Under the pieces are notes generated by a model that was given only the letters and a program-made list of their open reading frames with translations, had not been told where the DNA came from and ran no database searches. Shown one piece after another: positions 25,014-51,292 of a stretch of 64,000 bases of DNA. Both the position numbers and the translations under genes were made by a program. The DNA comes from Peptococcaceae bacterium BRH_c4a (lineage in GTDB: Bacteria; Bacillota; Desulfotomaculia; Desulfotomaculales; Desulfocucumaceae), in contig LADN01000033.1 in NCBI GenBank assembly GCA_000961585.1, positions 1 through 64,000 on the forward strand. Direction: 5' to 3'. The first letter of the stretch is position 1. Each line of letters begins with the position of its first letter.

Positions 25014-25415
25014 TCGTTAAGGAAAGTATGCGCCATATTAAAGTATTAAAGCGCTAAATCACCAAAGCATTTTTATGCAGCCCAGAGTTTTTCCGGTGTC
25101 GCTCCTGGGTCACTTGAGGGTCGCAACATGGTCGCTAATGGGTAGGCGGAGCGATTTAAGTCCGGCCTGCATTACTTCCGACTGCAACTGTCTCTAAACT
25201 CGGTCGCCAACGGAATGCCGACCGCCTCCAACGCCGCGTCCTTGCGTCGATTCCGGCTTCCGGCTGCGTCCTGCAGCCGGCTCGGCATTCCGTAGGCTCG
25301 GTCGTTAAGAGACAGTAGCAGCCTCCGGCACATTCCGCACGGACTTAAATCACTCCCCCTCACTGCATGTCGCTGTGGGGTCGCTTGAGGGTCGCTTTTA
25401 AGGCAGCCTGTCACC
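25014..25415 (+). repeat. Dispersed repeat, copy A, interrupted by a fold-back insert
   Basis: The flanks 25014-25124 (TCGTTAAGGAAAGTAT…, AAAGCATTTTTATGCA, GCCCAGAGTTTTTCCGG) and 25378-25415 (TCGCTTGAGGGTCGC, TTTTAAGGCAG, CTGTCAC) match, in inverted orientation, the continuous copy at 59632-59760. The middle, about 250 bp, is absent from the other copy. No gene is visible in the element. Confidence 0.8.
25125..25377. mobile_element. MITE-like fold-back element inside repeat copy A
   Basis: The near-perfect terminal arms GGAGCGATTTAAGTCCG (25148-25164) and CGGACTTAAATCACTCC (25340-25356) face each other. Inner arms also pair: ACTGTCTCTAA with TTAAGAGACAGT, and CGGAATGCCGA with TCGGCATTCCG. 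The whole can fold into one long hairpin. Direct repeats of 18 bp (GGGTCACTTGAGGGTCGC at 25107 and GGGTCGCTTGAGGGTCGC at 25378) flank it. It encodes no protein. A non-autonomous insertion is inferred. Confidence 0.6.
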
Positions 25416-48024: not shown

Positions 48025-48840
48025 TTACCTGTTAATACGGGTCATCAGCGCCAGGGTGATTTCTCCGGGCATTCCGCTCCCCACCGGCCCATTACCTATG
48101 CGGGTCAGGGGCATTACACCCATCAGTGCGTTGGTAATGAAAGATTCTTCTGCCGAGGATAGTTCACCGGGATGAATGCTTTTTTCTTCTACAGATATTC
48201 CCATGCAGGAGCACTCCTCCAGCACACGCCGCCTGGTAATGCCCGGCAGCAGGCCGCACCGGGGATGCGGGGTTTTTACCTTCCCCCCGGCCACCAGGAA
48301 GATGTTGCTGACGGCACCCTCGGCCAGACTGCCGGAGTTGTTCAAAAAAAGCGCCTCGTCCCATCCTGCGCCGACTGCCTCGCCCCGGGCCATGATGTTT
48401 TCAAAGTAATTAAGCGTTTTGTGCCTCACCAGCGGCGATCCCTCATTTCTTCTAATGCTGGAAAAGGCCGCGGATAGGCCATTATGATACTGGTCTTCAC
48501 GGTACGTCAGGGGTCTGCCCTGGATGAACATGCTGGGGCCTCCCATTCCTCCTCCGGTGAGGGTCAGGCGCAGGCCTCCCTGTTCCATCCCGTTCTTTTT
48601 GGCCGTAAGGCACAACATTTCTTCAATTTCTCCGGCTCCAAAGGGCACCTTCAACCCAAGTTCCCCGGCCGAAGCAAACAGACGGGACAGATGCCTTTCC
48701 AGCACCAGGGGGCTGCCCCCGGATACCCTTATGGTTTCAAATATACCAATGCCGTAAAGCACGCCCTGGTCGCTGATCGGTACCGAACCTTGCCCGGCCC
48801 CCAGGTATTCACCGTTAAAACAGACAATATCCATATTCAT
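48025..48840 (-). CDS. pabC: Aminodeoxychorismate lyase, class IV aminotransferase fold
   Basis: A 271-residue PLP enzyme. The catalytic Lys lies in VRHKTLNYFENIMAR, with the class IV hallmarks DQGVLYGIGIFETIR, EALFLNNSGSLAEGAVSNIFLV and PGITRRRVLEE. Fold-type IV members include branched-chain aminotransferases and D-amino-acid aminotransferases; its place after pabA-pabB makes 4-amino-4-deoxychorismate lyase (p-aminobenzoate release) the likely role. Confidence 0.85.
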   Translation of the reverse strand: MNMDIVCFNGEYLGAGQGSVPISDQGVLYGIGIFETIRVSGGSPLVLERHLSRLFASAGELGLKVPFGAGEIEEMLCLTAKKNGMEQGGLRLTLTGGGMGGPSMFIQGRPLTYREDQYHNGLSAAFSSIRRNEGSPLVRHKTLNYFENIMARGEAVGAGWDEALFLNNSGSLAEGAVSNIFLVAGGKVKTPHPRCGLLPGITRRRVLEECSCMGISVEEKSIHPGELSSAEESFITNALMGVMPLTRIGNGPVGSGMPGEITLALMTRINR

Positions 48841-48905: not shown

Positions 48906-50348
48906 TCACGACCCCAGCAGGGCTTTCACCAGCGCTTGTGCCTTATCCAGTGTTTCCACGTATTCCGATTCGGGGTGGGAATCGATGGTAAGTCCCCCCC
49001 CCACCTGGAAATATATTTTTTCAGGAGTAAACAACAGAGTCCTTATAACTATATTCAAATCGGCATCCCCGTTAAATCCCAGATACCCTATGGCTCCGCA
49101 GTAGATACCCCGCCTTACCGGCTCCAGTTCTTCAATTATTTCCATAGCCCTGATTTTAGGGGCGCCGGTTATTGAACCCCCGGGGAAAGAGGCCTTTAAC
49201 AAACCCATAACACCACCGTTCTCCAGCCTGCCCACAACTGTGGAAACCAGGTGAAAAACGGTGGGGTACTCCTCCAGCCGGTACAGTTCCGCAACATGTA
49301 CCGTTCCCGGAACACACACCCTTCCCAAATCGTTTCTCTCCAGGTCCACTATCATTACCAGCTCGGCCCTGTCTTTTTCGCTATTCCACAGTTCCTCCCG
49401 CAGTATGCCGTCCTCCAGGGGGTTCCTGCCCCTGGGCCGGGTGCCTTTGATGGGCCTGGTTTCCACCATGCCCCCGGATACCTTGAGGAATCTTTCAGGA
49501 GAGGCGCTGACCACCTGCAGATGGCCACAATTTATATAGGCCGCCATGGGAGCCGGATTTATCTTCCGTAATCTCCTATACACATCCCACGGCCGGTCCC
49601 TGCCTGGAAAGCTGAAGCGCTGGGAAAGGTTTACCTGAAATATGTCGCCGGCCGCTATATATTCCCTGGCCCTTTCAACCACCTGGCAGTAACTTCCCCT
49701 GTCAAAATCCGAAATCATTCCTGGCTGGTGGGCATCAGCAGGTCCGCCGATAATCTCCGTTACCTTTTCCGGGGATTCTTTTATTCTTATGCTTTTTCTT
49801 ATTTGATCTTCCAGCCAGTCCAGGCGCTCCCCCGCCCTGCGTTCTTTCTTCAGCGCATCCTGTTCCGGTTTGCCTGTGGATACAAGGTAAACCGACCGGC
49901 CCACATGATCCAGGGCGGCCACCACGTCGTAAAATCCCAGCCAGCAGTCCTCAACGTTGATGTCGTCGGCGGCTTTTTCCGGCAGTTTCTCCAGCTGTCT
50001 GCCCATATCATAGGAAAAAAAACCGGCGGCGCCGCCAAAAAAAGGAATGGGGCATTCCACCCCTTCCATCTTGTGCTGTCTCATCAGATCATCTATGATA
50101 TCAAAGGGATTCCCCAGTCTGATTTCTGTTTCCCCGGCCCGGGGCCCGCGCCTGGTTTCAATACATACCCGGTTCCCCCTGGATGTAACAATCATAAAGG
50201 GATCCGCCGATATAAAAGAATACCTGGATAAACCCTCCATGATCAGCCCGCTGTCCAGCAGTATACTGCCGGGAATATCGGCCATGCCGTTAAAGAACGA
50301 CACGGTGTCAGGTTCCAGATCAAGTTTTTTAAGCAGATACGGTTTCAC
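48906..50348 (-). CDS. pabB: Aminodeoxychorismate synthase component I
   Basis: A 480-residue chorismate-using enzyme. The C-terminal half holds [36 protein letters not shown] and [22 protein letters not shown]. The Lys in PIKGT is the PabB mark; anthranilate synthase has Ala there (PIAGT). GTG at 50348, with GGGGGG 6 nt upstream, overlaps the pabA end. It works with PabA to make 4-amino-4-deoxychorismate for folate. Confidence 0.93.
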
Positions 50349-50928
50349 GAAGAACCCCCCGGATCCCAAGAAAATTTTTCAGCATCATTTTTCCGCAGTG
50401 GGTTAGTATGGACTCCGGATGAAACTGAACTCCCTCGACCCAATATTCCCGGTGCCTTAGGCCCATAATCTCCCCCTCACCGGTAAGGGCGGTAACCTCC
50501 AGGCATTCCGGCAATCCTTTGTTGCTGACCAGCAATGAATGATATCTGCCTACTTCCAGTGCAGAAGGGAGTCCTGAAAAAATACCCCTGCCGTCATGCC
50601 TGATAATTGAAGTTTTACCGTGCATGGGCCGGTGGGCCCTTACCACCCTCCCCCCGAAGGCCTGACCGATGGCCTGGTGCCCCAGGCATACACCCAGTAT
50701 CGGTATTTTACCCGAGAACTGCCTTACCATTTCCAGGGAAATACCTGCCTCATCGGGGGTGCAGGGTCCCGGTGATATGATGATGTGATCGGGATTGATT
50801 TTCTTGACCTCTTCCGGCCCAATACTGTCGTTGCGGCAAACCTGAACCTCCTGGCCCATTTCCCTCAGGTACTGAACCAGGTTGTATACGAAGGAATCGT
50901 AGTTGTCAATCATTAATACCAACTGCAA
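50329..50928 (-). CDS. pabA: Aminodeoxychorismate/anthranilate synthase glutamine amidotransferase
   Basis: A 199-residue type 1 glutaminase. The nucleophile is in [13 protein letters not shown], the His/Glu of the triad in VQFHPESIL, and the start [16 protein letters not shown] is typical. In Firmicutes this subunit often serves both PabB and TrpE, which explains why it can be under tryptophan control. It is the first gene of pabABC and is preceded by a 110-nt leader with a terminator. Confidence 0.94.
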
Positions 50929-50939
50929 TCACCTCTCCC

Positions 50940-51082
50940 AATAAAAAAAGACCAGCATAAATACGCCGGTCCTCACCCCGAAAGCTCCGAGTCGTCTCGT
51001 CAAAACCTGCTCTCAACTCTTATACACTCAGCTCGTCTTATCTTTGGAAAAAAGTATAACACTAAAATAGCCTACACCTCAA
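50940..51082 (-). promoter_or_regulatory. pabA promoter and attenuator-like leader with NAG triplets
   Basis: On the minus strand TTGAGG (51077-51082) and TTATAC (51054-51059) are 17 bp apart. Just after the expected start, AAG, GAG, GAG, (UAU), GAG, GAG, CAG occur at an exact 5-nt pitch (51039 down to 51007), with another GAG at 50998. AGCTGAGT (51026-51033) can pair with ACTCGGAGCT (50983-50992). A terminator (GACCGGC, GCTGGTC, T7) lies at 50943-50971, 20 nt before pabA. The triplets look like a TRAP-binding site; that is inference. Confidence 0.6.
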
Positions 51083-51149: not shown

Positions 51150-51292
51150 GTCTCCCTATAGGGAGACTTGCGGTCAGCGGTCAGCTCTCAGCAATCAGCA
51201 TTTAGGAGAATAAAAGCTGATATTTCTGCTGATTATTCTGAGTTCTCATATCTAAGAGCTGACGGCTGATAGCTGATAGCTGACAGCTTTTT
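51150..51292 (+). repeat. Word-repeat hairpin and T-tract directly upstream of aldehyde oxidoreductase
   Basis: GTCTCCCTATAGGGAGAC (51150-51167) is a perfect dyad. It is followed by GTCAGC/ATCAGC words (51171-51200) and their inverse, GCTGAC/GCTGAT words (51257-51287), ending in TTTTTTT just before the AGAGGAGG ribosome site. The long hairpin plus T-run would work as a terminator facing the gene. A regulatory role is inference. Confidence 0.55.

Follow-up and report, generated by a model that had tools for sequence, protein, structure and literature searches.

TRAP, the product of mtrB, is the textbook RNA-binding, tryptophan-sensing ring protein of 11 subunits and is known mainly from Bacillus; the Yanofsky and Merino groups, among others, have published comparative work on it in Gram-positive bacteria. 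One known target is the B. subtilis trpEDCFBA attenuator; in this species the ring still promotes termination when the attenuator hairpin is lacking (PMC3913778). On trpG (the pabA ortholog), trpP and ycbK, B. subtilis TRAP instead blocks ribosomes (PMC11255114). Here we compare with these systems the leader of a pabABC operon located in the window, that is, the whole 64,000-nucleotide stretch of DNA that was analysed, in which a reading of the sequence alone had pointed out TRAP-like triplets. A literature search for TRAP control of pab genes by attenuation found nothing; older comparative predictions of some of the sites are possible.

Results

The operon lies on the minus strand and consists of pabA (50329-50928, TTG start), encoding the aminodeoxychorismate synthase glutamine amidotransferase and scoring over the TIGR00566 cut-off, pabB (48906-50369), encoding aminodeoxychorismate synthase component I, and a probable pabC (48025-48840) with the aminodeoxychorismate lyase / branched-chain aminotransferase fold, which we named from its operon position as no model scored over its cut-off. 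The products of pabABC make a folate precursor. Since PabB passes the TIGR00553 cut-off and fails those of the trpE models, and a separate trpE-trpG pair exists in the genome, the operon is, judged from these matches, pab and not trp.

Upstream of pabA we predicted by eye a sigma-70 promoter at 51053-51082 (−35 box TTGAGG, 51082-51077; 18-nt spacer; −10 box TATACT, 51058-51053), which places the expected transcript start at about 51046-51045. The minus-strand series AAG-GAG-GAG-(UAU)-GAG-GAG-CAG follows in 5-nt steps from 51039 to 51009, exactly as the sequence-only reading described it. The register gains one further upstream step, an AAG at 51044 that adjoins the predicted start, in agreement with the claim that the triplets begin close to it, and extends downstream with spacers of 2-3 nt to GAG 50998 and GAG 50987. 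The complete order is AAG 51044, AAG 51039, GAG 51034, GAG 51029, (UAU 51024), GAG 51019, GAG 51014, CAG 51009, an empty place, GAG 50998, (GAC/ACU) and GAG 50987. We annotated this region, 50985-51044, as a putative TRAP site, with eight NAG in its best 11-place chain and a register conserved in relatives.

An alignment of relatives outlined an ultraconserved block, AGACGACUCGGAG-CUUUC-GGGGUGAGGACC (50968-50997), which contains places 9 to 11 of the site together with the first bases of the terminator. Within it, a small hairpin can form between CUCG (50988-50991), which overlaps place 10, and UGAG (50972-50975), whose GAG is common to the hairpin and to the base of the terminator stem. The intrinsic terminator expected before pabA is located at 50943-50974, with the stem GAGGACCGGCGU-AUUU-AUGCUGGUCUUU followed by a U run; it covaries in relatives, and pabA starts at 50928. 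The triplets do not overlap the ribosome-binding site, the last of them lying ~55 nt upstream of the start codon with the terminator in between; with the site this far upstream and directly before a terminator, termination would be the mode of control, in contrast to B. subtilis trpG and as the sequence-only reading suggested. Compared with Rfam 15, the leader gave no riboswitch or T-box at the gathering score and nothing meaningful at E up to 5. Elsewhere in the window we observed imperfect repeats of the GCTGTCAGCTATCAGC type, in both arms, at 51160-51290 between the divergent gene (51309) and the pabA promoter, a CRISPR array of 39 repeats matching Rfam CRISPR-DR2 at 38-2572, and a TwoAYGGAY RNA motif above the gathering score at 25173-25330 on the minus strand.

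The best 11-place chain in the pabA leader scores 7.4, a value reached by none of 2000 dinucleotide shuffles (mean −1.4, sd 2.2, maximum 7.0). When 87 kb of the own genome were read on both strands, the trp leader alone exceeded it (17.0), and the next unrelated place reached 2.1. A search of the whole genome for a six-AG register returned exact matches in the trp leader only, with the pabA leader among the places found when one mismatch was allowed; as these places number 13 against 12 in the reversed control, the single-genome pattern would not have been decisive on its own. In 34 non-redundant leaders the AG-AG distances of 5, 10 and 15 nt are enriched above shuffles (z = 18.4, 9.9 and 4.2) and are the only enriched ones among those up to 16 nt, so the triplet spacing of the sequence-only reading is conserved in relatives.

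The triplets are also limited in number. In 50 non-redundant leaders, with steps counted upstream from the conserved NAG in the block, the NAG frequency over nine steps was 1.00, 0.78, 0.58, 0.52, 0.56, 0.74, 0.70, 0.84 and 0.66, and at step ten it was 0.14, under the 0.27 of shuffled sequences. Downstream, place 10 in the block is ACU or GAC, never NAG, and place 11 is usually NAG; the nine steps plus places 10 and 11 therefore make 11 places, the subunit number of TRAP. As the transcript start lies at the same point, the promoter and the upstream limit are not independent of each other.

The leader is present at 19 of the 25 pab-type loci, defined as pabA followed by pabB and including the window itself, with a conserved layout of AGACGACUCGGAG, 4-7 variable bases, GGGGUGAGRACC and then a terminator. 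The block that follows the nine NAG steps in the 50 non-redundant leaders reads AGACGACUCGGAG-N4-7-GGGGUGAGNACC. The leader stands upstream of pabA or pabB across several families, in the Desulfotomaculales, in Moorella, where pabB is the first gene after the block, and in other related lineages. A scan of 84,980 GTDB genomes for the exact degenerate block retrieved 31 stretches; AG triplets precede the block in 31 of 31, and pabA or pabB comes just downstream wherever the sequence can be read, two stretches running to the edge of what is available. The block is absent from trp leaders that carry TRAP sites, and its conservation exceeds what four base pairs and terminator complementarity would need. 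Desulfofundulus thermobenzoicus has two different copies of the pab leader (L097 and L103) ~11 kb apart on one contig, one of them preceding a pabA-like gene that is truncated where the contig ends.

The own genome does encode TRAP: PF02081 matches one protein over the Pfam cut-off (E = 1.4e-38, 132.6 bits), and the nearest solved PDB structures are MtrB/TRAP chains. The remark that TRAP is patchy in Clostridia proved wrong for this order, with mtrB in 57 of 60 relatives, and in 105 of 113 genomes of the class. With TRAP encoded and the triplet spacing conserved, neither of the two outcomes that were to count against the sequence-only reading occurred. Contig C98 of this genome holds its trp operon (trpE-trpG), in whose leader ten NAG keep a perfect 5-nt register ahead of a terminator; by its sequence this leader is a positive control for TRAP attenuation within the same genome. 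The trpG of that operon is dedicated and separate from pabA. In two relatives, T-boxes replace the TRAP triplets in the trp leaders (L087, 748-1351, two in tandem; L088, 775-1017), and both keep mtrB.

We then ran a covariance model of the leader (E ≤ 1e-5) on 398 genomes spread over the phylum. Matches occurred in 41 of them, and all 41 carry mtrB, against 200 of the 398 overall; the association has a Fisher p of 5.7e-14, or 6e-13 outside the own order, values that treat the genomes as independent and are too optimistic because these are related. Some low-scoring matches fall on TRAP leaders other than those of pab, and the link to TRAP is no weaker for it. Among the genomes with an exact block, a second set that overlaps the first, mtrB was found in 29 of 30. 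The remaining one is a fragmented MAG that matches G001, which has the leader and in whose 180 contigs mtrB was not found; since this assembly is fragmented and its trp leader (L068) is also a strong TRAP site, the missing mtrB probably sits in an assembly gap. Both mtrB and the leader are lost in genus g27 (G099, G100 and G102), which is no clean test of the link to TRAP because these genomes also have no pab-type pabA.

The CUCG:UGAG hairpin is paired in 33 of 33 distinct rows of the alignment, with a double change from U-A to G-C in seven, and sliding or shuffling abolishes the pairing. In family f46 (L209-L212, L214-L217) ACUC and UGAG are replaced by ACGC and UGCG, so that the hairpin covaries to CGCG:UGCG. 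Since this covariation is probably a single evolutionary event, it supports the hairpin but does not prove it. The 5′ strand occupies place 10, the only place that is never NAG, and the hairpin and full TRAP occupancy are therefore likely to be exclusive. In the CGCG:UGCG family the hairpin overlaps no paired terminator base, which makes a simple exclusive antiterminator impossible there. Three other pairings were discarded: the ACUC:GGGU register suggested by RNAalifold breaks in one family in which CUCG:UGAG holds, a long antiterminator of AAGCUGAG with CUCGGAGCUU is good in some leaders and is not kept in relatives, and a GGUUUU-AGGACC pairing is present in a few leaders only.

Folding the leaders with and without the triplets, as the sequence-only reading had proposed, did not show TRAP occupancy tipping the balance in the pab leaders. 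The difference between terminator and no-terminator structures in the pab leaders is about −11 kcal/mol whether free or TRAP-bound, and masking shifts it by −0.4 kcal/mol for the triplets (n = 26) and by −0.03 for the whole ring (n = 39); equilibrium folding with TRAP-masked triplets thus revealed no classical switch in these leaders. In the trp leaders of the same bacteria, masking moves the balance by a median of +2.3 kcal/mol towards the terminator (n = 34), and many of them show the classical competition of triplets and terminator. The end of the ring in pab leaders is usually ~10 nt from the terminator stem.

Weak matches of the model within the order include strong leaders, with triplets and a terminator, before trpE, trpG, trpD and trpB. 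In four relatives TRAP-like triplets followed by a terminator also precede iorA, encoding the alpha subunit of indolepyruvate ferredoxin oxidoreductase (L180, L182, L186 and L176, the last with a weaker site; the gene was identified by an IOR_alpha match for L180 and by sequence likeness for the others), which makes iorA an unexpected candidate target. Similar sites with terminators lie upstream of genes for TrpX-like tryptophan ABC binding proteins (L174, L177, L181) and TrpP transporters (L187, L189, L193), and a very strong 11-place site (score 20.2) with a terminator precedes an open reading frame without an NCBIfam match (L175, G034:C48:9786-9900). Judged by these leaders, TRAP attenuation in the same bacteria also seems to reach the genes for indolepyruvate ferredoxin oxidoreductase and for tryptophan transport.

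Discussion

Our analysis supports the sequence-only reading and makes it quite likely that the pabABC leader is a TRAP-dependent transcription attenuator, in which, on the model of the B. subtilis trp leader, tryptophan-bound TRAP would displace the small hairpin and promote termination before pabA. Tryptophan probably controls the synthesis of the folate precursor here by termination and not by ribosome blocking; we infer the binding of TRAP itself, repression rather than activation by tryptophan and the role of the hairpin as the competing structure. When tryptophan is plentiful, the 11-subunit ring would wrap the leader as it emerges, starting at the first bases and reaching to the end of place 11 (GGAG), and cover the CUCG strand, so that the CUCG:UGAG hairpin would be blocked and the full terminator stem, GAG included, would form directly downstream of the ring and stop transcription before pabA. 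At low tryptophan, TRAP would be empty and the hairpin would form in the emerging RNA, with UGAG common to it and the terminator base; acting either as a minimal antiterminator or as a pause hairpin, it could delay or weaken the terminator and let the polymerase read into pabABC. Given that B. subtilis TRAP promotes termination in the absence of an attenuator hairpin (PMC3913778), a direct role of the ring in termination is possible.

An extension that we consider rather unlikely is a composite switch, in which TRAP occupancy and the structured ultraconserved block, the latter perhaps through a second ligand or through activation by TRAP, would jointly set termination. If so, TRAP would serve as the hub from which chorismate is shared out to tryptophan and folate.

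The main rival on the direction of control is that TRAP binds but activates, the ring disabling the terminator so that pab is on at high tryptophan, when chorismate is no longer required for making tryptophan. Our folding calculations show no advantage for the terminator from TRAP occupancy, the terminator is strong on its own, and with a dedicated trpG in the trp operon there is no obvious physiological reason or benefit for repressing pabA at high tryptophan. However, every studied TRAP site represses (PMC3913778, PMC11255114), B. subtilis TRAP promotes termination even when the attenuator hairpin is missing (PMC3913778), and the other leaders with triplets and terminators found here precede trp genes, where repression is expected; we therefore judge activation improbable. 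A low probability also attaches to the reading of the block by a different factor from TRAP, which might be a second protein or a small molecule, with the triplets as part of a composite sensor. Conservation of the block beyond its pairing needs, its absence from trp leaders with TRAP sites and the missing Rfam family would agree with such a reader, but AG triplets precede every exact match, every leader-positive genome of the phylum sample has mtrB and the block itself holds the last TRAP places.

Control of pabA translation by TRAP has the precedent of B. subtilis trpG, with the same regulator and an orthologous target (PMC11255114), but it is very improbable here: the triplets end ~55 nt upstream of the pabA start with the terminator between, the distance in relatives reaches about 320-345 nt, and pabB can come first. 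Finally, a chance purine-rich spacing before an ordinary terminator, for which speak the mere eight NAG in 11 places of the window leader and the six-AG count matching its reversed control, is already refuted by the comparison of sequences (the 5-nt spacing in relatives with z = 18, the sharp 11-place limit) together with 0 of 2000 shuffles, and we give it practically no weight.

TRAP attenuation would then act on the PABA/folate branch, with an unusual conserved element that the trp leaders lack. The folate operon is apparently controlled by termination, an arrangement conserved throughout the Desulfotomaculales and in several further lineages of the phylum. The candidate TRAP regulon with terminators widens to pab, iorA, trpX and trpP, and it becomes testable whether TRAP acts with a minimal or unconventional antiterminator.

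Among the known systems, T-box leaders likewise attenuate trp genes in some relatives (L087, L088), but the pab leader has no T-box features. The B. subtilis trpG (pabA) site shares with it the regulator and an orthologous target in PABA synthesis, but there TRAP binds over the ribosome-binding site and prevents translation (PMC11255114), and trpG there serves both pathways, whereas trpG and pabA are separate genes here. Likewise, the trpP candidates described above carry terminators, unlike B. subtilis trpP, which is under translational control. The trp, trpB, trpX and trpP leaders of the same order have the NAG register and terminator of the pab leader but not its conserved block. The pab leader also resembles the B. 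subtilis trpEDCFBA attenuator: close to the transcript start there are 11 NAG places with 2-3 nt between them, a hairpin takes in part of the last triplets, and an intrinsic-type terminator precedes the first gene. Unlike that attenuator, the pab leader targets pabABC, contains an ultraconserved block that trp leaders do not have, and combines a competing hairpin of only four pairs, and no predicted energy shift upon TRAP binding, with a terminator that is strong alone.
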